Part shown: positions 2,129-59,022 of the stretch, in pieces
Numbering within the stretch: the first letter of the stretch is position 1
Layout of the letters: every line of letters begins with the position of its first letter
From: Sulfurimonas sp.
GTDB lineage: Bacteria > Campylobacterota > Campylobacteria > Campylobacterales > Sulfurimonadaceae
Assembly: GCF_041583195.1 (NCBI RefSeq)
Contig: NZ_JBFHGL010000001.1
Span: 248,001 to 312,000, forward strand
Direction: 5' to 3'
Length of the DNA: 64,000 nt
Made by a program: the position numbers and the translations under genes
Notes under the pieces: generated by a model
Told to the model about the DNA's origin: nothing
Seen by the model: only the letters and a program-made list of their open reading frames with translations
Databases searched by the model: none

Positions 2129-2750
2129 GTTTCAGCAATCCCTCTTTGATTAAATTTCTTGCTTCTTCAAATTCTAAACCATCTATATTTATCGGTTCAG
2201 ATATATAATAATCAACCACACCAAACGGTTTAGGTATAACAAATTTGTCCCAAGAGTTCAGTTGCCAATATTTAGTCGGTTTAATCTCTACAAGGACAAT
2301 TTTTTTCTTTGTTTTTTGTGCTATAGCTATTATACCATCTTGAACTTCATGACGAGGCCCCTTAGGACCATCTGGAGTTATCCCTATATCGGAGCCACCT
2401 TTTACATCTTTAATAGCTTGGATAAGAGCTTTTGCTCCACCACGCGTAGTTGAGCCCCTAATTGTGCCAAAACCAAAAAAACCAAGTGTTTTAGCTATAA
2501 GCTCACCGTCAAAATGTTCAGATATAAAAAGTTTTACATTCGGGATTTTTTTGTATCGCAGATACGCGTATGGTATAAGTAATAATTCACCGTGCCAACA
2601 TGCCATAATAAAGTTATCATCTCCAAGAGTATCTGGAGCATGAAACTTTTTTTTATTTGTAAAATATAGAAGTCTGATTATTAGTGAACCAATAAAAGGG
2701 ATTGTAAAAAGTGCTAATTTTCTTTTTTGCGCTTTAGTTAATAATTTCAC
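2118..2750 (-). CDS. Lysophospholipid acyltransferase-like protein (DUF374)
   Basis: A 210-residue LPLAT-superfamily protein of the DUF374 type (HP0270-like). One hydrophobic N-terminal segment (about 14-30) suggests inner-membrane association. The family histidine lies in [12 protein letters not shown] (about residue 54), and the conserved [18 protein letters not shown] block (about 123-140) forms the acyl-acceptor site region. Members are thought to transfer acyl chains in lipid A or phospholipid metabolism, but the exact substrate cannot be read from the sequence. It overlaps miaB by 17 nt and the TPR gene by 11 nt. Confidence 0.85.
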
Positions 2751-4035
2751 CGCTTAAAATACTCCTACCGATTGCAGTTATTTTAACCTTTTTAAATTCC
2801 CCTAAAAGGTCTTCACTTCCTTTAGCTTTAATAACTAAGTTGTTATCGCTTCTTCCGCTTACATATCCGTCTGCATTTAGATCTTCAAAGTAAACTTCAT
2901 AAACTTTTCCAAGATTAGCAGCCATTTTCTCATCTAAGATCTTTGTATGCAGGTCTTGTAAAAATGTAAGTCTTTGTGAAGCTACATCAGGATCTACCGT
3001 ATTTGTAAAATGCTCAGCTTCAGTTTCTGGACGCGGTGAATATTTAAAAGAAAATATCTGGTCAAAACGAACTTTTTCCATAACATCTATAGTATCTGCA
3101 AAATCTTCATCACTCTCACCTGGAAATGCCACTATAATATCCGTAGATATACTAACATCAGGAACCATTGAACGGAGTTTTTCAACACGGTTTAAAAACC
3201 ACTCTTTTGTGTAACCGCGCTTCATCTCTTTTAATATTTTCGTACTTCCACTTTGAAGCGGCATATGCATAGATTTACATATTTTAGGGTTTTTGGCAAA
3301 TTCTTCAATAAACTCATCATCCATATGAAAAGGGTGCGGAGATGTAAAACGGATACGCTTTAAACCTTCTATTTTACTAAGTTCTTGCAGTAGTTTTGTA
3401 AAGTTTACTTTTTCATGTTCACCCGTAAAGCGGCGACCATAATTATTTACATTTTGCCCCAGTAAGAAGATCTCTTTAGCTCCGCTATCAACTACGCGTT
3501 TTGCTTCATCAACTATAAGTTTTAAAGGTATACTTATCTCATCCCCACGTGTTTTTGGGACTATACAAAATGTACATTTTTTGTCACAACCTATTGAGAT
3601 ATTTATATATGCTTTATATGGTGATGTACGAAAATCTTTAAAAGCAAATTCACTCTCATCATAGTTGATGTCAACTTCAACTGATTTTGGTTTATGAAGT
3701 ACTTCTGTAATCTTACTAACGTTTCTCGCACCTAAAACAAAATCTACATAAGGTGCACGTTTTATTATATCTTTGCCTAAATGAGATGCCGTACAACCAC
3801 AAACACCTATTTTTGCATCTTCTTTTTTCTTTTTATTAAATACCCCAAGCTCAGAAAAAAGCTTTGAAACAGGTTTTTCTCTAACTGAACATGTGTTAAT
3901 TAAAATTAAGTCGGCTTCTTTAAAATCACTTGTTTGTGAATAATTTTCCTTTTCATTTAACTCAGCCAACATATGCTCTGTATCGCGCTCATTCATAGCG
4001 CAACCCAAAGTTTCAATAAATACTTTTTTACTCAA
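2734..4035 (-). CDS. miaB: tRNA-2-methylthio-N6-dimethylallyladenosine synthase
   Basis: Radical-SAM methylthiotransferase that converts i6A37 to ms2i6A37 in tRNAs reading UNN codons. The N-terminal UPF0004 domain carries the cluster cysteines (C12 in TLGCAMN, C49 in NTCSVREKP, and C81 in the VCGCTA stretch). The radical-SAM motif CDKKCTFC lies near residues 150-157. A C-terminal TRAM domain covers about 370-433. The length of 433 is normal. The protein start [12 protein letters not shown] fits the family. The order nusA / HP0268-like / miaB / DUF374 is a known Campylobacterota arrangement, which supports the call. Confidence 0.97.
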
Positions 4036-4464: not shown

Positions 4465-5613
4465 ATGGAAAAAATATTAGATATCGTAGACGCTATTGCA
4501 CATGAAAAAGGTTTAACTCCAGAAAAAGTAAAAGAGGCACTAAAAACAGCATTTATTCAAACTGCCAAACGTGTAATCGATCCAAACTTTGCTTACGAAG
4601 CTACAATCAACGATGCAACAAAAACAATAGATTTAGTACAAATTATTACCGTAGTTGCCGATGATGATGAAAGACTAAATGATGAGGAGATTGCTCCAAC
4701 ACTTATGGCTATAAGTGAAGCAAGAGACTATGACGATCAGGTTGAACTTGACGATCAATTACAAGTTCCACATGACTTAGAAGAGTACGGTCGTACAGGT
4801 GCATCTCAACTTCACCGCGAAATAGAATATCATGTACAGCGTGCTGTAGAAGATGATGTATATAACAAATATAAATCTAAAGTAGGGACACTTGTAACAG
4901 GACGTGTAACAAGTGTAGATGCTCAAAACTCTACTTTTATAGATGTTGATGAGATCCGTGCAGTACTACCTATGAAAAGCCGTATTAAGGGTGAAAGCTT
5001 TGAGGTTGGGGATCACTTAAAAGCAGTAGTTCGCCGTGTAAATATGGACAAATATGACGGTATATCAATTGAGCTTTCACGTACATCTCCTAAATTTTTA
5101 GAAGAGCTTTTAACACTTGAAGTACCTGAGATCAAAGACGGTGCTGTTATTATTGAAAAATCAGCTCGTATACCTGGTCAACGTGCAAAAGTAGCACTAA
5201 TATCAACTCATCCACAAGTTGATGCAGTTGGGTCTACTGTTGGTGTTAAAGGTGTTCGTATTAACTCAGTAAGTGCTGAACTTCAAGGTGAGAACATTGA
5301 CTGTATAGAATACACATCTATTCCTGAGCTGTTTTTAAGCCGTGTTATGAGTCCTGCAATTATCTCAAGTGTAGAGATCGTAAAAGATGAAGAAGGAAAA
5401 GCTGTAAAAGCAATCGTTTCACTTCCTGCTGATCAAAAATCAAAAGCTATCGGTAAAAGCGGAATCAATATCCGTTTAGCATCTATGCTGACAGGTATGG
5501 AGATAGAACTTAACGAAATCGATGGAGCTACTACACCAACTGAAGGAGCTGAGAGTACAGAACCTGAAGAGAAAAAAGACGGTGTTGATGCACTAGAGGC
5601 TCTGTTTAACTAA
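4465..5613 (+). CDS. nusA: Transcription termination/antitermination factor NusA
   Basis: NusA binds RNA polymerase and nascent RNA to modulate pausing, termination and antitermination. The 382-residue protein shows the N-terminal polymerase-binding domain (MEKILDIVDAIAHEKGLTPEKVKEALKTAF), an S1 domain (about 135-205, starting GTLVTGRVTSVD) and two KH domains (ARIPGQRAKVALIS and the KAIGKSGINIRLA loop). A short acidic tail follows, with no C-terminal acidic repeats as in E. coli; this short form is normal for Campylobacterota. The leader is about 70 nt from the extended -10 at 4384. It is divergent from the HP0268-like operon. Confidence 0.97.
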   Translation: MEKILDIVDAIAHEKGLTPEKVKEALKTAFIQTAKRVIDPNFAYEATINDATKTIDLVQIITVVADDDERLNDEEIAPTLMAISEARDYDDQVELDDQLQVPHDLEEYGRTGASQLHREIEYHVQRAVEDDVYNKYKSKVGTLVTGRVTSVDAQNSTFIDVDEIRAVLPMKSRIKGESFEVGDHLKAVVRRVNMDKYDGISIELSRTSPKFLEELLTLEVPEIKDGAVIIEKSARIPGQRAKVALISTHPQVDAVGSTVGVKGVRINSVSAELQGENIDCIEYTSIPELFLSRVMSPAIISSVEIVKDEEGKAVKAIVSLPADQKSKAIGKSGINIRLASMLTGMEIELNEIDGATTPTEGAESTEPEEKKDGVDALEALFN

Positions 5614-5855: not shown

Positions 5856-6813
5856 AACCACGCTTGATATAAGGGTTTAGTTTTAGAAGTATTAGGTCCG
5901 CTACCATATTTCCTAATAACGTTAGAAATGCAGTTATAATAAGTATCCCCATAATAATTGGATAATCACGTGAGAGTGCAGACATAAAAAACAACTGCCC
6001 CATTCCCTCAATTCCGAAAATAGACTCTAAAATAACACTACCGCCTATTAGACCAGGAAGTGATAAACCCAAAAGTGTAATTATCGGTGGCAGTAAATTT
6101 GGAAATATGTAGTAACGCAAAAGTTCTTTTGAATTCAGTCCACGTGAGAGTGCAAAATAGTAATAATCACTTTTTAATATCTCTAAAGTAAGTGATCTTA
6201 TATATATTACCATACTTCCAAGTCCAACAAATATCATAACACCAACAGGCAATACCAAATGCCATACCATATCTGTATAATAAGATATACCCTCTTTTGC
6301 CTCTATTGAGTGTAGCCCTGCTATTGGAAACCAATCAAGTTGTAGAGAGAAAAAGATTATAAATAATAGTGCCAAATAGAAACTTGGCATGGAAAAAGAT
6401 ACTAAAGAGATTTGACGAACGATATAATCAGTTTTTTTCTCATAATTTAGTGCTGCTTTTATTCCAAGATATAAAGATATTATAAAAACTGCAATTAATG
6501 CAGTAAAGTTCATAATAAGCGTTATTGGCAAACGCTTTAAAATCTCATCACTTACCTCTTGACCACTTACAAAACTGATCCCAAATTTTAGAGTAAATAT
6601 ATTTTTTACCCAATCTATATATTGTTCAAATAAAGGCTTATCTAATCCATATACAGCTTTTAAATTAGCTATCGCTTCTTTTGTCATATTTGGATTTAAC
6701 TCACCTGCACTTAAAAAGCTGTTTGGAGCAGCATGAATTGCTAAAAAAGATATTATAGATATTAAAACAAGCATAAAAAATATGTAAGAAATTTTTTTTA
6801 GTAAATTTGACAT
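5854..6813 (-). CDS. Peptide/nickel-type ABC transporter permease (DppB-like)
   Basis: A 319-residue inner-membrane permease of the binding-protein-dependent type 1 family. An N-terminal membrane helix (about 8-27) is followed by a periplasmic loop carrying the DppB-type segment (YGLDKPLFEQYIDWVKNIFTLKFGISF). At least five further helices follow. The coupling EAA-like loop is ALSRGLNSKELLRYYIFPNLLPP (about 222-244), then SLPGLIGGSVILESIFGIEGMGQLF, typical of DppB/OppB. Substrate cannot be read. No dppC-like partner, ATPase or binding protein is adjacent, so it is an orphan here. Confidence 0.88.
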   Translation of the reverse strand: MSNLLKKISYIFFMLVLISIISFLAIHAAPNSFLSAGELNPNMTKEAIANLKAVYGLDKPLFEQYIDWVKNIFTLKFGISFVSGQEVSDEILKRLPITLIMNFTALIAVFIISLYLGIKAALNYEKKTDYIVRQISLVSFSMPSFYLALLFIIFFSLQLDWFPIAGLHSIEAKEGISYYTDMVWHLVLPVGVMIFVGLGSMVIYIRSLTLEILKSDYYYFALSRGLNSKELLRYYIFPNLLPPIITLLGLSLPGLIGGSVILESIFGIEGMGQLFFMSALSRDYPIIMGILIITAFLTLLGNMVADLILLKLNPYIKRG

Positions 6814-24901: not shown

Positions 24902-24922
24902 AGGTACAAAAAAGGTACACTA
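24902..24922. other. Integrase arm-type repeats, left end
   Basis: AGGTACA occurs twice with 11-bp spacing (24902-24908 and 24913-24919) in a 21-bp block that is 20/21 identical to 58993-59013. The block overlaps the stop codon of the giant protein gene. The two blocks would flank the core on both sides in circular attP, as arm sites do. Confidence 0.55.
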
Positions 24923-27900
24923 CTGATCCTTTTTTATATAAAAATCTTTAATCTGTTTTATCTTTACTCCACTTTTTATTGCATCTCTGATCGCATCTTT
25001 ATTTTTCTTAGCATCATCATAACTTTGAATGTTCCATTTTTTACTCCACTCTTTAAGAGCTTGATTCTCTCTGAAACCTTTAACCATTTTTTTATAGCTT
25101 GATACATCCATGTGTTTTGCTTTAACAGCTTCTTTAGCAAAACGATAAAATCTATCTTGCTGATTTTTAGTATAGATGTTAGTTCCGCTATCTTTATACA
25201 TATTGATCACTTTGTATAGTGCAGCTTTTTCTCTTGTCTCTCCGACTGCTGCTCTCACAAAAGGAATTTTATTTACATCTAGGTCCTCACCTTTGTAAGA
25301 TTTTACTGCAGCATCTGCAGATCTGCTTATAAACTTACCTAATCCACCGGTAGCATATTCAAACAAATAATCTAATGTATTTGGTGATATGTCTATAGCT
25401 CCACTATTGAACTGATCACCGCCTGTAGCAGTATTTAGTGTTTTAGCTATACCTTTAGATGCTTCTGTAGCGTTTTTAGTATGGTTGTATGCTTCTGCTT
25501 TATTGTTTATAGCAAACGGATTATCATTTGGTTTGATGTTACCACCATAAAAGTTTTTATTCATAGCCAGGTCTTGAAAAGGTCTTGCTACAGTAGGTGT
25601 AAACATTTGTTCTAATTCCGGTGCAGTAGAGATAGGTGAAAAAGCATTAGCCATTAGACTAAGAACTCTTTTTGGTATATCACCTGCTTTTATTTCGCCT
25701 TTTTCATACTCTGCAGCTATATCTCCCATAGATTTAAACACATTATATCCGTATGGAATTTTGATAGTTTTATAGCTTCCATCTTCATTCATAAAGATAT
25801 ATGAAGTATCTTTTACATAGCTTGGAATTTTGTCGTATTCATCAGCATTAACACTTTGGTTATACATAGATAATCCATATCCTGTTCCGGCTATAGCTGC
25901 TGCTATACCTTTTGCTTTATTGCTATCTTTTAGTGCTTTGAACATTCTGGTAGTACCTTGAATACTTGCATTGTAGAACATATACATAGTATTCATAAGA
26001 GTACCTTTTTCACCTTTACGGTTGAAGTTTACAGTTAGATTTTTAGCTATTGATGCAGCCTTTTGTTTACTTAGTCCACTATCAAGTGCCATTTTATAAG
26101 CTACTGTTCTAACTCCATTTTCTACTGCAGTATTCATATCATCAACATATTGTAGAACTGCTTTAAACGCTTGTTTTGGTGCTAACTCTCCGTTATATTT
26201 ATCTATGATCGCTTGGCTTCTTGCTTTCATGTCAGATACATTGTACTGCTCTAACCATCCTGTAGTACCACCGTTTCGCTTCATATCCATGAAGATTTTG
26301 CTCCACTCGTTAGAGTTTCTACCTCTTTCTGCTCCAAATATACCTTTTATTGCAGGTCCTACATCTTTTAATATCTTAGCTCTATTGACTTTGATATTAT
26401 CCGGCATATTGATCATAGCTGTTTGTAAGTCTCTCTCAAAGTTTGATACTACGAACTCCGGATTGTATTGTGTATTTACAGATGCTAAAAATCTAACTAC
26501 TTTTTGCACCCCTCTCATTAGACTACCCATCTGTTCAGCATTTAGGTTTTTAAAAGCACTTGCAAGTGCAGGATCGTGAATCACTATCTCTTTAGTTTTT
26601 CCATCTACTTTAACGTGCATAACATTATCAGCTAATTGGTAGTTAGGATTCATACCTACTACCTCACCCATATTATTATACATAGGTGTGTGTCTTACTC
26701 CGCTAACTTCATATAAGCTTTGATCAGGGTATTTTTCTATGAAGTCTAGGAATGACTTACCAACTTTGTTTTTCTCTGCTCTTATGATTGTTTCCTGGTA
26801 TGCTAAGATTGAGTGCATAAGTGGCGATTCTACTGCTCTATCACTACCTTTAGCACGTTTGATCTCTTTACCTTTTACATCAAAACCTCTACCTGTACGC
26901 ATAGCAGGACCATTATTATCCATAATACGCTTTAGAGGTACATAGTTATCGTAAGTTTCATCTATTTTTCTGATAAAATCTTCATTCTCTAATCCCTCTG
27001 TGTAAAGAAGTTTCAATCTGTCACTGTTCATCTTGTAAACCATTTGAGCAACTTCATTAAGTTCTTTATTGTCAGCATATTTTCTGATGATCGCTTCTGC
27101 TAAATCATCACGCATACCACTACCAAACTCTTTTCCGTTAAGCTCGTATATACGTTTGTTACGCTCAATAGCGTGTCTTGCATGAAGATACTCATCTAAA
27201 TCATCTATAGACACTTTAGAAGCAGCTATCTTTTGCATAATAGGCTCTACTGTATCAGCTTCAAAGTCTGATATTCTAGCTTCCACTTTACCATGATATA
27301 GTTCTTCTGTTTGATAAGGATTTATAGCATCTGCTATCTCATCACTACCTGCTTTTGTTTTAATAAGCTGCTTAACTCTGTTGAATTTATCCTGCATCAT
27401 ACGCTGTGCAAACTGCAGCTTAGTCTCATCTGGAAGTGTACCTGCTTCCGGTAGTTTACCGGCTTTGAATTTTCTGTACGCTTTATATGAAGCATAGCCA
27501 CCTGCAGTTACTGCTAAACCTGCAAGTGCTTTAGTTGGATCAAAAGTTAAGTTACCATCTTCATCCTCACCGAAACCTGCAATAGCTCCACTAAATGATG
27601 GTGATGCCATAGCTACCATTCCATCAGGTTGTTTTTCTGGTGACCATCCCCATTCATGTATAGAGTTTCCATCTGTGTAAAGGTCTTTAGCTTTAACTTT
27701 CATTTCTAAAATTTTATAGTTTCCATTAAGAGGACCATCCCCATGCTCTATAGCATAAGTCTTACTTGTTGTCACCCAATCATCAGGATTTATTTTTACA
27801 TCAAGATCTTTAGGAACTGCTCTATATATTGTAACATCAGCGTATGGCTTACCTCTTACTGCTTGAATAATTTTTACAGATTCATCATCCATATTTTTAT

Positions 27901-30900
27901 TGCCATGTCCAAAATATCTTGCAGCATTTGGAGAATATATATCTTCTCCATAAACATCCGTTAGGTCTTGTGCAGCAGTTCCGCTATCTTTAGATGGAGC
28001 TGTGTGATCCATTTTGTAAGTATCTTTTTTTGATGCTTCTCTGGCTTCTGATTCTTTTACTGCTTGTTTAAATGCTTCATCATCCGCTAGTTGCTTCTCT
28101 TTAAAGGCTTTAACTCCGTTATCATGGATATATTTAATGTCTTTTCTAATATCTTCATTTGGCATCTCTCTCCACTTACCTCTTGCTTCAAAGTAAACAG
28201 TATCACTTTCTGGATGATAAAAGTAGTTTTTATCTCTATCCGGATAATAAACCTTTCTTCCACCTGTCTCCGGAAGTCCTTGTTCTAAGCGTTGAGCTTT
28301 CTTTTTCTCTAATAAGCTATTTTGTGGTATAATTGTCTTATTAGGAGAGGTTGAAGTAATTGCTGCCGGTGAAGCAGCACCCTCTCCCATATTTCTATCA
28401 GAATAGTAAGTAATTACTCTTTCTTTTCCATTTTTCGTATTACCTGTTACAACTTTAAAGCTAACGCCATCTTGTGTAAGTTCATATACATTTTTTCCGT
28501 AGCTTTCACTTATATCACCTTTGCGAATTACCTCACCAATCTGTAGTAATTCCTCTTTGCTAACTGCTCCTACACTTCCATTATCTAAGTGTTTTTCAAC
28601 ATGTAAAGCTCCAAAGCCTTTTCCGTTACTTTCAAAACCTTTTTCGTATTTAATTATTGAATCAAGATCGCTTTTTCTTACTTCTGTTGCATTTTTACCA
28701 TTAAATGTTACATTCCAGATACCTCTTTTTTCTTTTTGAGCTTTTGATTTAACAGGTGACATCATAGCTACACCATCATCATATTTAATGATAGGATCTT
28801 CATATTTACCCTCTGCTTTAGCAAGTGTTTCAGTCCATGCTTCACCTTGTCTCTGTTTAGATGAATAATCCATACGGTGTTCTGTAGCTCTTGACTGTTG
28901 TTCACCCCATAGTTTCTGATAATTTTTATATTTTTGATGAGATTTTGCGGTTTGAAACTCGTCTCTTATTACTTCAAGTTCTGTCTCTGTGAATTTATAC
29001 TCTTGATATTTTTCATCTATTATCTTTTGATCTAGTTCATCCCATTTAGCTTGATAATATGCAGCATAATCGTCTTTAACTTTTTTATCAAGTCTTGAAA
29101 TTTCTTTACGGTAGAAGTTTTCCATACCGTTAGATAGTTGCTCACTTGAAGTTAAAGGACTGCCACCTCTCGCCCATCCCTCTTGTTTTTGAACTGCGTG
29201 TTGCACTTCATGTAGGAGTGTAGATTTTAAATCTTTTTCGCCTTGCCAATCACCTACATTTAATGTTATTTTATTCTCTCTAGGATTATAACTTGCTCCG
29301 GACTTTCCTGCACTTCTATCAAACGATACTTTTACATCATTTATATCGTTGTATTTATTCACTAATTCTTCATGTTGAAATATATCACCTAACTTTACTT
29401 CTTGATCTGAATTAATTACTTTGTATAGATTTTCTTTGAACTTAGCAGCATTATCATCTATCTCTCTCATAGTCTTTTTGGTAGCTACATCACTAAAAGC
29501 ACCAATTTCATCACCTTTAGCACCCACAAACATAGAATTTAAGCTATTGCCCTGCTTTTGTATCTCTGGATTAAAATTCACTTTGTTTACTGCATCAGTT
29601 AGAATATCTTTTAGCTTACCTCTAACCTGCTTATTTTTAAGTGCTGTTTTTACTACAGTATATCCACCTAAACCAATGATGAATTTTTCAGGATCTAAAG
29701 TAATATTCCCATCTTCGTCTATTTCTACACCGGCATAAGTAGCTACTGCTGCATTATCCAACCCTCTGCTAAAGAGCATATTAGCTTTTTCCCAATCTTG
29801 ATCAAACGGATTAGGCTCTGCATCCAACTCATCTAATTTAGTTTTATAGTCTATTTCATTAACAGGTTTTTGATTCCAATTAGGATCGTTTTTTAAAGTA
29901 GATAAATCCGCTTCTAGCTTACTTAGTAGGTCCTCTGTGATTTTTCCGTTTTCAAAGTCTTTCACATCTTGTTTTGTAGTGTGGAAGTCATAATTATAGT
30001 TTTTTTCATAAGTTGCCGGTGTAACATCTACTTCATAGCCTTTGCCGGTGTTTTGAGTATTTATCTGTCTTGCAGTTATAAGATTGTTAGGATTTTGGCT
30101 CTCTTTTGCAGATACACCTCTACGCATCTCTAATAACTCATTAAAGCGATCATCTTTAGTGATGTTGTCTATTCTAGTATCAAAATTTGCATTAGCTTGA
30201 ACATTTATAGGATCTATAGTCTGAGAAGTAGGCTCTAAATTGTTCAATCCTAAATCATCACTAGCTTTAGTGGCTTTGGTTTTAGTTAGGAACTCTGCTA
30301 CATCAAAACCCTCGTTTTGTAGTGCTTCTTCTGCATCTTGTGGAGATACTTTACCACTTTTTACTGCTTCACCCAATTTAGCATATTTTTCAAGGTGTGC
30401 TTTTTCAGCTTTGTAACCTGCATAGCCACCAAATAACAGTCCTGTACCCATCTGAATAATTCCGGCAGTAAGAGGGTATTCTTGTTGAAAGTCTTTACCC
30501 ATAAGATCATTAGTAGCATTTATAGCACCTGTAGCTGCTACGTTACCTACTATATCACCTTTAGCAAAAGCACTTCCTACAGCTATTGACTTTTCTGCTG
30601 CTTGTCTAGCATCATCTGTTTTAGCTATAGCTTTACCGAATAAACCTGTTCCTGCTTTTGTTAGTCCACCTGCAGCAAAGGCAAAATCAAGTGTAGTATC
30701 TTGTAAAGGCTGATTTTCAGCTTCAAACCTATTAAAATCTTGGCGATATTCAGCCTGTTTTTTTGCTTCTATACCTGCAGATATTGCTTCTTCTTTAGTT
30801 TGTGGAAGCTGATTAAAAGGATTATCCATCTCTGCAATAGGCTTATTGAAGCCCATATCTGTTTTATATTCAGTAACTTTTTTGTTAAATTTATCTTCTA

Positions 30901-31036
30901 TTTTTGCTAAATCTGCATCACTAAAATCTTGATCTGCTGTATATGAATCCCAAACTCTTTTAAGTGCTACATCCTGCTTTTCAGGTGTTAGTTTTTCAAA
31001 TCTTGGATCGTATATAGTCTCTTGTAATAAGCTCAT
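24920..31036 (-). CDS. Giant polyvalent ejection-type protein (2038 aa)
   Basis: Resembles the large polyvalent proteins that phages package and eject with DNA. Seen, in order: Gly/Ala-rich hydrophobic stretches (about 120-210); a DEDGN-TxDP motif followed by a Gly-rich hydrophobic helix (near 440); a zincin motif LLHEVQHAVQ (near 611); a segment like Barnase/EndoU-type nucleases (about 800-880, with FGALHVEKHL and TKNGKERVITYYSDR); an ART-like segment (about 1060-1130, with TIYRAVP, WVTTSKTY, SIHEWGW); a second DEDGN motif (near 1157); and a helical C-terminal half like LPD38-type regions (MYMFYNASIQGTTRMFKAL near 1690). It is last in the virion operon. Activities are inferred from motifs only. 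Confidence 0.8.
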   Translation of the reverse strand: MSLLQETIYDPRFEKLTPEKQDVALKRVWDSYTADQDFSDADLAKIEDKFNKKVTEYKTDMGFNKPIAEMDNPFNQLPQTKEEAISAGIEAKKQAEYRQDFNRFEAENQPLQDTTLDFAFAAGGLTKAGTGLFGKAIAKTDDARQAAEKSIAVGSAFAKGDIVGNVAATGAINATNDLMGKDFQQEYPLTAGIIQMGTGLLFGGYAGYKAEKAHLEKYAKLGEAVKSGKVSPQDAEEALQNEGFDVAEFLTKTKATKASDDLGLNNLEPTSQTIDPINVQANANFDTRIDNITKDDRFNELLEMRRGVSAKESQNPNNLITARQINTQNTGKGYEVDVTPATYEKNYNYDFHTTKQDVKDFENGKITEDLLSKLEADLSTLKNDPNWNQKPVNEIDYKTKLDELDAEPNPFDQDWEKANMLFSRGLDNAAVATYAGVEIDEDGNITLDPEKFIIGLGGYTVVKTALKNKQVRGKLKDILTDAVNKVNFNPEIQKQGNSLNSMFVGAKGDEIGAFSDVATKKTMREIDDNAAKFKENLYKVINSDQEVKLGDIFQHEELVNKYNDINDVKVSFDRSAGKSGASYNPRENKITLNVGDWQGEKDLKSTLLHEVQHAVQKQEGWARGGSPLTSSEQLSNGMENFYRKEISRLDKKVKDDYAAYYQAKWDELDQKIIDEKYQEYKFTETELEVIRDEFQTAKSHQKYKNYQKLWGEQQSRATEHRMDYSSKQRQGEAWTETLAKAEGKYEDPIIKYDDGVAMMSPVKSKAQKEKRGIWNVTFNGKNATEVRKSDLDSIIKYEKGFESNGKGFGALHVEKHLDNGSVGAVSKEELLQIGEVIRKGDISESYGKNVYELTQDGVSFKVVTGNTKNGKERVITYYSDRNMGEGAASPAAITSTSPNKTIIPQNSLLEKKKAQRLEQGLPETGGRKVYYPDRDKNYFYHPESDTVYFEARGKWREMPNEDIRKDIKYIHDNGVKAFKEKQLADDEAFKQAVKESEAREASKKDTYKMDHTAPSKDSGTAAQDLTDVYGEDIYSPNAARYFGHGNKNMDDESVKIIQAVRGKPYADVTIYRAVPKDLDVKINPDDWVTTSKTYAIEHGDGPLNGNYKILEMKVKAKDLYTDGNSIHEWGWSPEKQPDGMVAMASPSFSGAIAGFGEDEDGNLTFDPTKALAGLAVTAGGYASYKAYRKFKAGKLPEAGTLPDETKLQFAQRMMQDKFNRVKQLIKTKAGSDEIADAINPYQTEELYHGKVEARISDFEADTVEPIMQKIAASKVSIDDLDEYLHARHAIERNKRIYELNGKEFGSGMRDDLAEAIIRKYADNKELNEVAQMVYKMNSDRLKLLYTEGLENEDFIRKIDETYDNYVPLKRIMDNNGPAMRTGRGFDVKGKEIKRAKGSDRAVESPLMHSILAYQETIIRAEKNKVGKSFLDFIEKYPDQSLYEVSGVRHTPMYNNMGEVVGMNPNYQLADNVMHVKVDGKTKEIVIHDPALASAFKNLNAEQMGSLMRGVQKVVRFLASVNTQYNPEFVVSNFERDLQTAMINMPDNIKVNRAKILKDVGPAIKGIFGAERGRNSNEWSKIFMDMKRNGGTTGWLEQYNVSDMKARSQAIIDKYNGELAPKQAFKAVLQYVDDMNTAVENGVRTVAYKMALDSGLSKQKAASIAKNLTVNFNRKGEKGTLMNTMYMFYNASIQGTTRMFKALKDSNKAKGIAAAIAGTGYGLSMYNQSVNADEYDKIPSYVKDTSYIFMNEDGSYKTIKIPYGYNVFKSMGDIAAEYEKGEIKAGDIPKRVLSLMANAFSPISTAPELEQMFTPTVARPFQDLAMNKNFYGGNIKPNDNPFAINNKAEAYNHTKNATEASKGIAKTLNTATGGDQFNSGAIDISPNTLDYLFEYATGGLGKFISRSADAAVKSYKGEDLDVNKIPFVRAAVGETREKAALYKVINMYKDSGTNIYTKNQQDRFYRFAKEAVKAKHMDVSSYKKMVKGFRENQALKEWSKKWNIQSYDDAKKNKDAIRDAIKSGVKIKQIKDFYIKKDQ

Positions 31037-48397: not shown

Positions 48398-48602
48398 CTA
48401 TGCCTTTATCAAATACTGATAATATCTTTCATAGTCTTTTATCTTTGTTGCTTCTTTTTCAACAGCATCTTTGTTGGCTATTCTCAATCTGTATTTCATG
48501 GCTGTGATTTTCGCCCATACTGCAAGTTCTTCTTTGGAGTTGTCTAATCTTTGCTATCTTATTTTTCTTTTCTGCAAGTTCTCTAAATTCTGATGCTTTC
48601 AT
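48398..48602 (-). pseudogene. Frameshifted small phage gene
   Basis: The ATG at 48602 overlaps the methyltransferase stop (ATGA). The frame reads MKASEFRELAEKKNKIAK and then turns into unlikely sequence, stopping near 48459. One nucleotide over, the frame reads RLDNSKEELAVWAKITAMKY and on to KDYERYYQYLIKA, ending at 48398, with no start codon of its own. Together they look like one protein of about 67 residues with a +1 shift near 48548-48555. A sequencing error or a natural mutation are both possible. Confidence 0.45.
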
Positions 48603-49399
48603 ACTGATACCTCCAATTTCTCAAATAATCCAACTTGACCTAAAGCTCTTCTTACTCTTTCAGTAGCTATTTCAGCAAAAGGTTTTTTTGTAAATTCACA
48701 TATTCCATTATCAAACCCTATAAAATCTCTTTTTTGTCTTACACAACCTACAGGAGTAGTACCACTTCCCACACAATTATCTAAAACAATTTCACCTTCG
48801 TTTGAATAGGTCTTTATGAAGTACTCGATTAGTGCTAATGGTTTTTGTGTTGGATGTAAATGCTCAATTTGTTTATCTTTAGAAAATTTAATAACACTTC
48901 TTGGGTATCTTTCAGTACTGCAGTAATCTTTAGTATAAAGTTGCTTTCCATAAGAAGTACTCATTTTACACTTAGCTTTGCTTTCTTTTTTACTTTCTTT
49001 TTTATGCCCTTTTGTTTTTATGGGATTGTATGTTGGTAAGCTTTTATAAAACACTAAAATATTCTCATGTGCTTTCATAGGCATTTTTTCAGCATTTAAA
49101 AAGCCTGTAGCTTCTGGTTTTTCCCAAATCCATTCATGTCTAAAGAGTTTCATATTAGAACAGGCGAGTACTTTATCAAAAGGGGATTGAGCAAATAATA
49201 GAATTGCACCATCATCTTTTATTATTCTTTCATACTGTTCCCATAGTTTTTCAAGATCTATGACTGAATCCCATTTATTTTTAGTTGTTCCATAAGGAAG
49301 ATCACATAAAATTAAGTCTATTGACTTGTCTTTTATCATCTGCATTCCTAATAAGCAATCCATATTAAATATTTTGTTGATGTAATTTGTTTCTTTCAT
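48599..49399 (-). CDS. Site-specific DNA methyltransferase (N6/N4, beta order)
   Basis: A 266-residue amino-methyltransferase. The catalytic motif IV DLPYGTTKNKWDS (about 35-47) lies ahead of the SAM-binding motif I LDNCVGSGTTPVGCVRQKRDFIGFD (about 210-234), the beta-class order. HPTQKPLALIEYFIKTYSNEGE sits between them. It probably methylates phage DNA to evade host restriction or to mark replication or packaging sites. It overlaps the MTase-like gene upstream by 4 nt. No restriction gene is beside it. Confidence 0.9.
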   Translation of the reverse strand: MKETNYINKIFNMDCLLGMQMIKDKSIDLILCDLPYGTTKNKWDSVIDLEKLWEQYERIIKDDGAILLFAQSPFDKVLACSNMKLFRHEWIWEKPEATGFLNAEKMPMKAHENILVFYKSLPTYNPIKTKGHKKESKKESKAKCKMSTSYGKQLYTKDYCSTERYPRSVIKFSKDKQIEHLHPTQKPLALIEYFIKTYSNEGEIVLDNCVGSGTTPVGCVRQKRDFIGFDNGICEFTKKPFAEIATERVRRALGQVGLFEKLEVSV

Positions 49400-49899
49400 A
49401 ACACATACACCCCACTATCTCTTTTAATCACTTCTGACTTATCCCAACAAAACCATGCGTACTCTGTGCTGTCTGTACCCTTACCTGTAAATGATGGTCT
49501 TTTACTAAGTACAAAAATATGTGATGGTGGATTGTCATTCCAAAACTGCTTACGCTTTTGTGAGCCTAAAAAATTAAGTCTAAGAAGATATACAACTGTC
49601 TTTGCTTCATTAAGTGACTTCTCTAAAAATTCAAGTGCTTCGCTAAAAGGTGGATTAGTTACAATCAGGTCTGCTTCATAATCTTTTTCAAGGTAGTTAA
49701 TACCCTCACGAATCTCTGCATAATCAAGGCGATCAACACCTGCAAAATGCTTTAATATTGCGTTATCACCTCTGCATGGCTCACAAAATGAAGATACTTT
49801 GCTTAGGTCTAGTTCATTTAAAAGCAATTCAATCGGCTCTTGTGGAGTTGCGTAAAAGTCATGTGCATTTCTAACTGCACCTCTATTTGTGCTACTCAT
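49396..49899 (-). CDS. DNA N6-adenine methyltransferase-like protein, short
   Basis: A 167-residue protein with SAM-dependent methyltransferase features: a motif I-like FCEPCRGDNAILKHF (about 38-52) and motif IV TNPPF (about 82-86), followed by SEALEFLEKSLNEAKTVVYLLRLNFL. It is short and has no obvious target recognition domain, like phage Dam-type minimal enzymes. It overlaps both neighbours by 4 nt, so it is co-translated with the replication gene and the second methyltransferase. Confidence 0.8.
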   Translation of the reverse strand: MSSTNRGAVRNAHDFYATPQEPIELLLNELDLSKVSSFCEPCRGDNAILKHFAGVDRLDYAEIREGINYLEKDYEADLIVTNPPFSEALEFLEKSLNEAKTVVYLLRLNFLGSQKRKQFWNDNPPSHIFVLSKRPSFTGKGTDSTEYAWFCWDKSEVIKRDSGVYVL

Positions 49900-50783
49900 G
49901 CTTCTCTCCTTAACATATCAAGAACACCTTGATCAATGTTCTCATCATTTTTGAGTGTTTGTGCTGCAGGTGCAGCTTGTGGTCTAGTATCTGATTTACA
50001 AGTTCCTAAAAACTTTAATTCGTTAGGACAGTAGATATTATTTGTTCCATACTCTTGCAACATTAAGTCATTTGTTACCGGATGGTGATGTTCTATGATG
50101 TATCTAGCAGGTACAAACTTATCAAACTTAATAGAGTTACTTATCCAGGTATTGTAAGCTCTACTCCAATCTTTAAAAGTGCTGCCTTTAGCTATGTGAT
50201 GATCCAAAAACTTCTCAAAGTTATATGCACCATCTTTTGTAACAGCGTATGCTTTTAGTTTCTCTTGATACTCTTTGCTTATATTTTCAAACTGTGAAGT
50301 TTTAGTAAGTGAAAAAGTAAAATCTTTTTTTATATTTTTTTTACTCTTATCCTTTGTAGCTCTAATAGGATTAGTATTCTTATATGTCGGATTTATTTCC
50401 GAGTTTTTTTCGGATTTATTTCCGAGTTTTTTCGGATTTATTTCCGAGTTTTCATCAAATTCGGATTTATTTCCGACATAGTAACTTTTACCTTTTTCAG
50501 TAAGTTTTACACAGTCTTTTTTCCCATGTTTTACATAGTCTATTAATCCTATTTCTGATAGTGCTTTTAAGTGTCTATATACACTATCTGCTTTAAGGTC
50601 CAGGAGAGGTAATTCTTCTGCTATTTTTTGTCTAGCGGTCCAATAATAAACCTCTGTATCTATAACCTCATGAGTAGCCCAACTATGAGCATCAGCAATA
50701 AGCCCTAATATTACTGCTTGATTAACATTAGTTAATCCTAGTTCTAGTGCTTGTTTTTGATTTATAGTTAAAGTATATTTCAC
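49896..50783 (-). CDS. Phage replication initiator-like winged-helix protein
   Basis: A 295-residue protein. The N-terminal part (about 1-100) is a winged helix (TARQKIAEELPLLDLKADSVYRHLKALSEIGLIDYVKH) as in phage O-type and DnaD-like replication proteins. A repetitive linker (about 103-132) is encoded by the iterons at 50387-50476. The C-terminal part (about 155-235, YNFEKFLDHHIAKGSTFKDWSRAYNTWISNSIKF) resembles the helicase-loader contact region of such proteins. Origin iterons inside the initiator gene are the lambda O arrangement. Initiator function is inferred. Confidence 0.75.
   Translation of the reverse strand: MKYTLTINQKQALELGLTNVNQAVILGLIADAHSWATHEVIDTEVYYWTARQKIAEELPLLDLKADSVYRHLKALSEIGLIDYVKHGKKDCVKLTEKGKSYYVGNKSEFDENSEINPKKLGNKSEKNSEINPTYKNTNPIRATKDKSKKNIKKDFTFSLTKTSQFENISKEYQEKLKAYAVTKDGAYNFEKFLDHHIAKGSTFKDWSRAYNTWISNSIKFDKFVPARYIIEHHHPVTNDLMLQEYGTNNIYCPNELKFLGTCKSDTRPQAAPAAQTLKNDENIDQGVLDMLRREA
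50311..50476. other. Candidate prophage replication origin with four iterons
   Basis: Four perfect copies of the 16-bp dyad TCGGATTTATTTCCGA (arms TCGGA/TCCGA) start at 50387, 50410, 50432 and 50461. Spacings of 23, 22 and 29 bp mean they are read in two alternating frames, so conservation is at DNA level. A run of A/T (about 50311-50347) on one side could be the unwinding element. Confidence 0.7.
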
Positions 50784-52214: not shown

Positions 52215-52862
52215 ATGTTGTTACAAAAAATTAATGATCTTCTCGAAATAAAAGGTAGGGGTACACAAAAGAAATTAGCTGATTTTATAGGTGAAACTCC
52301 GGTCAATGTAAACAGATATATAAAAGGGAGTAGAGATATTCCTGTAGAGATAATTCCCAAGATTGCAGAATTTTTTAATGTTTCAACGGATTATTTACTA
52401 GGAAATGATATTATAAAGTCACAAGTTAAAACAATTCCCATTATAGGTACTACAAGTTGTGGAGGAACAGAGTTGAGTAATCATGTAGAAATTGGTGCTG
52501 TTTGTTATTATAATGGTGCTTACTATAAAGATAGTCTCTATTGTGTTGTTGCTAATGGGGATAGCATGGCTCCGGAGATCGAAGATGGAGATGAAATAAT
52601 TTGTGATCCTGATGTAGTACCTGAAAATGGTGATATGGTGCATTATACAATCGAAAATGAAAGTGCTGTAAAGGTATTTGTTAAAGATGAAGATGCTTAT
52701 ATTATCCAATTTATTCCATATAATGCCAACGAAAATTTTAAAACAAGAACTTTTAGATTAGATGATGAATATACAGCTAATCTGAAAATAGCTAAAGTAG
52801 TAGCAGTAAATAAATTAAAGTACAACAATAGAGCTGCAAGATTAAGAATGATAGGAAGATAG
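52215..52862 (+). CDS. CI-like repressor with S24 autoprotease
   Basis: A 215-residue repressor. The N-terminal HTH is TQKKLADFIGETPVNVNRYIKGSRDIPVEIIPKIAEFFNVSTDYLL (about 17-62). The C-terminal LexA-type domain has a Cys-Gly cleavage site in GTTSCGGTEL (about 78-87), the nucleophile Ser in VANGDSMAPEI and the general-base Lys in AVKVF. It should hold lysogeny and be cleaved in a RecA-dependent way after DNA damage. An AAGGA ribosome site precedes the ATG. The lipoprotein gene follows 1 nt after its stop. Confidence 0.92.
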   Translation: MLLQKINDLLEIKGRGTQKKLADFIGETPVNVNRYIKGSRDIPVEIIPKIAEFFNVSTDYLLGNDIIKSQVKTIPIIGTTSCGGTELSNHVEIGAVCYYNGAYYKDSLYCVVANGDSMAPEIEDGDEIICDPDVVPENGDMVHYTIENESAVKVFVKDEDAYIIQFIPYNANENFKTRTFRLDDEYTANLKIAKVVAVNKLKYNNRAARLRMIGR

Positions 52863-57668: not shown

Positions 57669-57965
57669 ATGGACACAAAAGCATTTGAAAATTTAGAGCT
57701 TATTCCGCAGCTTCTGCAAAAAATAGAATCTATGGAAGAAAGATTGAAAAAATTTACACCTGCAGTTACTACAAAAAAAGAGGTCGCTAAATTTTTAAAT
57801 CGTTCCGAAAGAACTATAAATAGGTATATAGCGGAGGGCTTTCTTAAAGAGGGCTATCATTTTGACCGAAAAAGTGATAAACTTCTAGTGTTTATAGAGG
57901 ATAAAATCTTAGAATTTAGGGATCAACTAAACAGAGGTATTATCAATGAAAAAATTGCGGTTTAA
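57669..57965 (+). CDS. Helix-turn-helix protein, excisionase candidate
   Basis: A 98-residue protein with TTKKEVAKFLNRSERTINRYIAEGFLKEGYHFDRKSDKLLVFIEDKILEF (about 38-86), the MerR-like winged helix of AlpA/Xis-type proteins. It overlaps the integrase gene by 20 nt, the usual place for xis. The GTGG ribosome region precedes the ATG. It may direct excision and also regulate the operon. Confidence 0.7.
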   Translation: MDTKAFENLELIPQLLQKIESMEERLKKFTPAVTTKKEVAKFLNRSERTINRYIAEGFLKEGYHFDRKSDKLLVFIEDKILEFRDQLNRGIINEKIAV

Positions 57966-59022
57966 AAATCGTAACGGTGTTTTGTATTTTGGTTTTGATG
58001 GTAAGTTTAAATCATCTAAATTAAAAGATACAAATGTAAACAGGAACATTATAAAAGGTAAGTTCCTTAGAGGTGAGCTAAATAGTGATCTAAGTATAAA
58101 TGAGCATAAATCGCCTTTGATTAAAGATTTAGTTAAAGAGGTTTTTATAGACAAAAGTAAACATCTTAAACGAAAAACTTTAAAGGCTTATGCTACTGCT
58201 AAAGACAAGCATATTTTACCGTATTTTGGCGATAAAATGGTAACGGATATAAAACCGATTGACATTAAAAACTTTCAAGATGATTTAGTAGCTAAAGGAT
58301 TAAACTCATCTTCGATAAGGTTTCCAAGAGTAATTCTAAAAGAAGCATTTAACTTAGCTATACTTAGTGAGCATATAATCTCTAATCCTATTGTAATGGT
58401 AGGTGTTCCAAAGATAAAGAAAAAAGAGCAAAAACCAAAGCCCTTTACACTAGATGAGATTGATTTGATTTTATCTTCTGCTGCCGGTCCTCTTAGAAAC
58501 TTTTTAGGAATATCTTTTTTTACAGGTATGAGATCAGGTGAACTGTTAGCTTTAAAATGGGAAGATGTAGATTTTGAAACAGAAACTATCACTATCAATA
58601 AAACTATTGCTGATGGTGCGATAAATTCTGCTAAAACAAAATCGAGTGAGCGTGACATAGAAATGATACCACAAGTTATAGAGTTTTTTAAAGCACAGCA
58701 GCTTGTGACTTTTTTAAATGGTAGCTATGTTTTTCTAAATGCTAGAAATAATCATTATGGAAACAATATGACTATGTATAGCAAATATCAAGATTTATTG
58801 AAAAAATTAAAACTTGAAAAAAGAAGTTTACATAATACAAGACATACTTTTGCAAGTATTATGTTAAATAACGGAATTGATCCTCTTTGGGTATCAAACA
58901 CACTAGGACATAGTAACTTACAGATCACATTAAAGATCTATACTCACTATATGCCTAAAAAAGAAAAAATGAAGTTACCTTTTTTAGAAAAGAGGTACAA
59001 AACAGGTACACTATCCTTATAA
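57946..59022 (+). CDS. int: Phage integrase (tyrosine recombinase)
   Basis: A 358-residue integrase. The N-terminal arm-binding part (about 1-55) is followed by the core-binding domain (about 60-150) and the catalytic domain (about 165-358): R in TGMRSGELLALKWEDV, K in TKSSERDIEM, HxxR in HNTRHTFASIML, H in LGHSNLQ and the Y nucleophile in IYTHYM. It lies at the prophage's right end, and its last codons contain the right-hand AGGTACA arm repeats. It reads toward the host response regulator. Confidence 0.95.
   Translation: MKKLRFKNRNGVLYFGFDGKFKSSKLKDTNVNRNIIKGKFLRGELNSDLSINEHKSPLIKDLVKEVFIDKSKHLKRKTLKAYATAKDKHILPYFGDKMVTDIKPIDIKNFQDDLVAKGLNSSSIRFPRVILKEAFNLAILSEHIISNPIVMVGVPKIKKKEQKPKPFTLDEIDLILSSAAGPLRNFLGISFFTGMRSGELLALKWEDVDFETETITINKTIADGAINSAKTKSSERDIEMIPQVIEFFKAQQLVTFLNGSYVFLNARNNHYGNNMTMYSKYQDLLKKLKLEKRSLHNTRHTFASIMLNNGIDPLWVSNTLGHSNLQITLKIYTHYMPKKEKMKLPFLEKRYKTGTLSL
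58993..59013. other. Integrase arm-type repeats, right end
   Basis: AGGTACA at 58993-58999 and 59004-59010 (11-bp spacing), within the 3' end of int; the 21-bp block differs from 24902-24922 at one base. Confidence 0.55.

Follow-up and report, generated by a model that had tools for sequence, protein, structure and literature searches.

The window (the whole 64,000-nt stretch of Sulfurimonas DNA that was analysed) carries a prophage whose replication initiator gene contains four copies of one short DNA sequence (Table 1). Besides the repressor and integrase of Table 1, the prophage encodes RecT, a DUF3799/exonuclease VIII-like nuclease, a terminase and an SU10-type portal. A Campylobacterota host, as an earlier note on this DNA had it, is consistent with the closest named relative, a Campylobacterales MAG; the podovirus-like character also given there may be hinted at by the SU10-type portal. 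Downstream of the initiator, two overlapping methyltransferase-like ORFs (48599–49899, minus strand) match parts of phrog_799 and phrog_67, and the late region includes a 2038-aa ORF (24920–31036, minus strand).

Table 1. The initiator gene, its repeats and its prophage setting, in coordinates of the window
Feature	Position	Strand	Basis or detail
Replication initiator gene, 295 aa, GTG start	49896..50783	-	ORF and PHROG matches
Codons of N-terminal winged-helix domain, residues 1–104	50472..50783	-	AlphaFold pLDDT 93–97 (residues 11–100); MarR/Fur/TubR-like PDB folds
Codons of recognition helix region, K64-x-D66-S67-x-Y69-R70 (helix 65–78)	50550..50594	-	Columns almost invariant among 17 divergent relatives; tracks iteron
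Iteron 1 (first in gene order)	50461..50476		Frame 1, VGNKSE
Iteron 2	50432..50447		Frame 0, SEINPK
Iteron 3	50410..50425		Frame 1, LGNKSE
Iteron 4	50387..50402		Frame 0, SEINPT
Codons of predicted disordered linker, residues 105–160	50304..50471	-	pLDDT <60 from about residue 105
Putative DNA-unwinding element	50342..50386 (approx.)	-	TACTAAT at 50370–50376; 73–83% A+T over 90 nt past last iteron
Further A/T-rich run, from the earlier note	50311..50345		Sequence
Codons of C-terminal helical domain, residues 162–218	50130..50300	-	Helices in AlphaFold model; 55% identical module in L001/L002
S24/HTH CI-like repressor, divergent from initiator's operon	52215..52862	+	Pfam/PHROG matches
Tyrosine integrase (prophage context)	57946..59022	+	Pfam/PHROG matches

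AlphaFold and comparison with PDB structures make residues 1–104 of the initiator a confidently modelled winged helix, and several of the viral models that clearly match it are named replisome organizer or replication initiator; a search of the PDB by sequence returned no matching entries. The strongest PHROG matches of the protein, 25527 and 11527, are of unknown function; others are 678 and 345 (‘replication initiation O-like’) and 186 (‘DnaD-like helicase loader’). Winged helices of the family described below match 25527 and 11527 in 17 of 17 cases, and 428 (replication initiation protein) in 15. Neither Pfam nor the two PHROGs that match it most strongly assign the family a function. The linker codons contain iterons 2–4 and the A/T-rich element, iteron 1 overlapping their start, and the C-terminal domain is an exchangeable module, presumed to recruit helicase or primase.

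The repeat, TCGGATTTATTTCCGA, occurs four times without a mismatch, always inside the 295-aa ORF and at spacings of 23, 22 and 29 bp, exactly as the earlier note had reported. What that note called a 16-bp dyad is one only in its 5-bp arms, TCGGA and TCCGA, the 6 bp between them having no palindromic symmetry. On the coding (minus) strand the repeat reads TCGGAAATAAATCCGA, and in gene order it falls in frames 1, 0, 1 and 0. This variant could not occupy the third frame, where its centre would read as a TAA stop. By chance, 0.41 matches with three or fewer mismatches would be expected in the whole window, and elsewhere in the 2.38-Mb host genome the pattern is absent. Shuffling the gene 20,000 times, with protein and codon usage preserved, never produced more than two dyads; the repeats, then, are no by-product of the peptide. 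The same DNA kept in two frames had been taken to mean sites that act as DNA, and the frames and the shuffles both bear this out.

Relatives were gathered in two ways. Starting from DNA, we scanned the 2.9 million viral contigs of IMG/VR for two TCGGA-W6-TCCGA dyads 3–33 bp apart. At least 120 contigs matched, and a letter-reversed control pattern matched none. Among the 120 matches listed, the dyads lie within an ORF with the matching N-terminal winged helix, recognized by profile, in 110; nine more are near the end of a stretch, part of any gene there being missing. In the last (L077) the dyads, at 4481–4543 and 5884–5930, adjoin an S24 repressor gene and are apparently operators, the same half-sites in unrelated use. 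In the genes among these listed matches, iteron copies are spread over all three reading frames (329, 112 and 122) and give SE[KI]xP, GxKSE or RKKIR as peptides; in 98 of 117 genes four codons separate the winged helix from the start of the first iteron, and the most frequent spacings are 22, 35 and 23 bp. Variation that keeps the dyad and changes the codons, which the earlier note had proposed to look for, is thus plentiful: the arms persist in three frames and across five phyla with differing peptides and A/T centres. The 10-bp dyad stays unchanged, in at least 120 viral contigs, while the initiator diverges to 26–45% identity.

To avoid circularity, relatives were also gathered by protein alone, and scored for two or more sites, each allowed one arm mismatch, just after the winged helix. 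Sites in that number follow 34 of the 38 winged helices with the recognition motif [KRT]xD[ST]xYR, and none follows nine of the ten scored without it, although these counts, coming from members that share ancestry, are not independent. The four exceptions are a contig end (L174), two genes with a single exact site (L162 and L164) and one with degenerate sites (L144); the odd one of the ten is L157, in which a frameshift hides the helix. L155 (4001–4560) and L157, from Aggregatibacter and Schmidhempelia genomes, are broken initiator ORFs that still keep their DNA sites. We define the family by this helix motif with two or more TCGGA-N6-TCCGA sites behind it; the window, with KADSVYR and four sites, belongs to it, and so do Pseudomonas phages of the F116 type. 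In F116 itself (L163, NC_006552) the initiator ORF is open throughout 2372–3514. The record annotates only small ORFs there (p31 and p32), so that the winged helix and most of the iterons are absent from the annotation. The hosts of the protein-found relatives are Campylobacterota, Gammaproteobacteria, Bacteroidota and Fusobacteriota, together with one Bacillota plasmid, whose protein is 26% identical and has one exact site. Scans of a phylum sample of Bacteroidota and a class sample of Gammaproteobacteria added one new member; the family is therefore sparse per genome. At the level of sequence, then, we have the repeats, selection on them as DNA in three frames, and coupling of iteron to recognition helix.

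Might the repeats matter as peptide instead—GNKSE and SEINP kept for the sake of the protein—or be a recent tandem duplication with no role at all? The identity of the window's four copies would suit either idea. We think both very improbable: the same DNA yields different peptides in three frames, synonymous shuffles fall short of the dyad count, the linker is predicted to be disordered, and L155 and L157 keep their sites in broken ORFs. Just as hard to credit is that the repeats are RNA or DNA hairpins, controlling expression or extruding as cruciforms. A 5-bp TCGGA/TCCGA stem with a 6-nt loop could form in each copy, but the letters of the arms are fixed across five phyla, single mismatches break the stem, and the arms track the recognition helix. 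The arms are perfect in 628 sites and have a single mismatch in 34; no compensated change occurs. A set of 276 apparent ‘compensated’ cases turned out to be merely the register shifted by 11 bp, TCCGA-N6-TCGGA, between neighbouring iterons.

Directly past the last iteron, at a fixed distance, the relatives share a second element, ACA-NAT-MAN-NNT-ACY-ART-NAT-MAN-NNT-ACY-ART, in which the motif TACYARTNAT recurs with a period of about 15 bp; the window holds one clear copy (TACTAAT), not two. In GC-rich genes, the ratio of AAT to AAC among Asn codons past the iterons is 186:0, against 179:496 in the codons of the winged helix and C-terminus, a comparison of related sequences for which we claim no P value. 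ACC and CAG codons are retained within the element in these genes, and avoidance of AAC while ACC and CAG are kept implies more than mere enrichment in A/T. A set of 35 distinct genes, no two more than 70% alike in this stretch, has 33 hits to [AG]NTACYART, where synonymous resampling gives 4.4 (sd 1.8) and never more than 11. Since 41 of 45 copies share one frame, it is codon choice that excludes protein selection here, rather than frame. Codon choice shows this second element, too, to be under selection as DNA, and the order winged helix, iterons, A/T element is fixed.

This element is the best candidate for the site of melting. The A/T run to which the earlier note gave that role does exist, but the element that relatives conserve lies nearer the iterons. 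More tentatively, and with rather more doubt than conviction, we suggest that the stretch past the iterons could be a sequence-specific docking site, its TACYARTNAT read in single-stranded form by the initiator or a partner during melting, much as the 13-mers of oriC and RK2 or the DnaA-trios function. We do not claim identity with DnaA-trios (consensus 3′-GAT-5′, PMC10721633), since the Pseudomonas members do not fit. Repeats resembling T-A-Y-Y-A seem to trail other classes of iteron as well, so that phage initiators whose DNA-binding domains differ could have this module in common.

We consider it highly probable that the four repeats constitute an intragenic replication origin, bound by the prophage's own initiator and situated inside that initiator's gene. 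GC skew gives no help in placing the origin, since across the window it tracks gene direction. The chief competitor makes the dyads operators and the protein a transcription regulator, which would bind inside its gene and there either repress its own operon or block transcription. The MarR/Fur-like fold would suit a regulator, and the half-sites of L077 beside the S24 repressor look operator-like. We nevertheless judge this improbable: the dyads lie within the gene, not at a promoter; the gene after the initiator in some relatives encodes DnaB helicase, lambda P or DnaC, that is, a helicase or loader; the PHROG matches are to O-like and other replication initiators; the C-terminal modules are exchangeable; and beside the array lies an A/T element with the marks of selection as DNA. 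Autorepression may be an additional role of the initiator.

The putative origin is of a known architectural kind, within what appears to be an initiator family of its own. In lambda, the O gene contains four iterons, each symmetrically inverted about an A-rich centre, with an A/T-rich stretch on their C-terminal side (PMC7466680). The window matches lambda in its N-terminal DNA-binding domain, in iterons within the gene some 20–24 bp apart and in shifting frames, and in an exchangeable C-terminus: its dyad iterons lie in the initiator gene past the DNA-binding domain (with one spacing of 29 among the three), and an A/T-rich stretch, recognized by composition and DNA-level selection, lies C-terminal of them. 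The layout of lambda ori, which the earlier note had seen here, can be retained as regards iterons, domain order and A/T stretch; but the protein is outside the Pfam family of lambda O, and the alternation of frames is not special, lambda's own iterons occupying frames 0, 2, 2 and 1. The N-terminal domain of lambda O matches PF04492 (Phage_rep_O) at 5.7e-36; of the 17 family winged helices and the full proteins tested, not one does, and comparison of that domain with the family winged helix by hhalign detected no similarity (probability 0.2%). The arms differ, too: ATCCCTC..GAGGGA in lambda, TCGGA..TCCGA here.

A second parallel is Rep of pSK41-type plasmids, a RepA_N protein whose N-terminal domain of about 120 aa binds, through a winged HTH, four Rep boxes central in rep; the origin encodes its linker, its C-terminal domain contacts DnaG primase, and pPR9, a chimaera with a phage-like N-terminal domain, shows that modules are exchanged (PMC5703833). 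Shared with the window are the winged helix, the sites within the initiator gene and the linker encoded by the origin. RepA_N (pfam06970) is absent from the Pfam matches of the window protein (E ≤ 1) and of 17 relatives (E ≤ 0.01), and no relation between the C-terminal domains was recognized. The RepA_N initiators of PLE satellites provide a precedent for coupling of DNA-binding domain and iteron: the two covary, while the C-terminus is kept (PMC8263062). The PLE origin is intergenic, however, and its iterons are of about 30 bp. For the second element, the models are TrfA of RK2 and RepE of F, winged-helix initiators that bind both iterons and repeats in single-stranded, A/T-rich DNA (PMC4081077). 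Their iterons and their A/T-rich repeats (13-mers and 8-mers) differ in sequence from those here. The origins of RK2 and F are not located among the codons of the DNA-binding linker. A palindrome of the Pf-5 island, CTGAGTTCGGAATCCGAACTCAGT (PMC2647930), lacks the 6-bp centre and belongs to another system.

Dimer binding, melting, helicase recruitment and the start of replication we infer from the sequences, and the mechanism that we propose is modeled upon lambda O (PMC7466680), pSK41 Rep (PMC5703833) and the RK2 and F initiators (PMC4081077). The N-terminal winged helix would bind each TCGGA-N6-TCCGA dyad, probably in dimeric form, each 5-bp arm taking one recognition helix. A spacing of 22 bp puts half-sites every 11 bp, roughly one per helical turn, so that several dimers might line up on one face of the DNA and build a complex resembling the O-some. 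This complex would then strain or capture the A/T-rich element past the last iteron, melting it, and the exchangeable C-terminal domain would bring in the replicative helicase, directly or by way of a loader. Since no loader was recognized among the prophage's genes, a host helicase may be engaged directly.

Intragenic origins (lambda, pSK41) and alternating frames (lambda) are already known. The initiator family, its conserved site across five phyla and the second element seem to be undescribed in the open-licence literature searched; neither 16-mer, TCGGAAATAAATCCGA or TCGGAAAAAAATCCGA, was found there. If our reading is correct, this is a family of origins whose start site could be read off the sequence, and its matched recognition helices and DNA sites are material for working out a recognition code. 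The second element, for its part, offers a direct way of testing how winged-helix initiators that lack an AAA+ domain melt their origins.

This set of helix–site pairs is enlarged by relatives whose helices and dyads differ from those above. A natural swap, L001/L002, has a C-terminus 55% identical to that of the window protein, a different winged helix, and a different iteron, CATCGGGACAAAATGACCCGATG; it is evidently the winged helix, and not the C-terminus, that the iteron accompanies. A sister class with an xxRR helix (L175, L176, L178–L180, L185–L190 and L192) bears GACTNAAAAGTC dyads in the linker, mostly 22–24 bp apart and in several members in shifting frames, and relatives with further helices bear GGACAAAATGACC and other dyads. 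The GQNDP/DKMT peptide repeats of phage replication proteins prove to be one dyad, GACAAAATGACC, read in two frames; it is carried by L001, L194, L196, L199, L201, L202 and L204, behind yet other winged helices. An A-rich centre is common to these dyads and lambda's.
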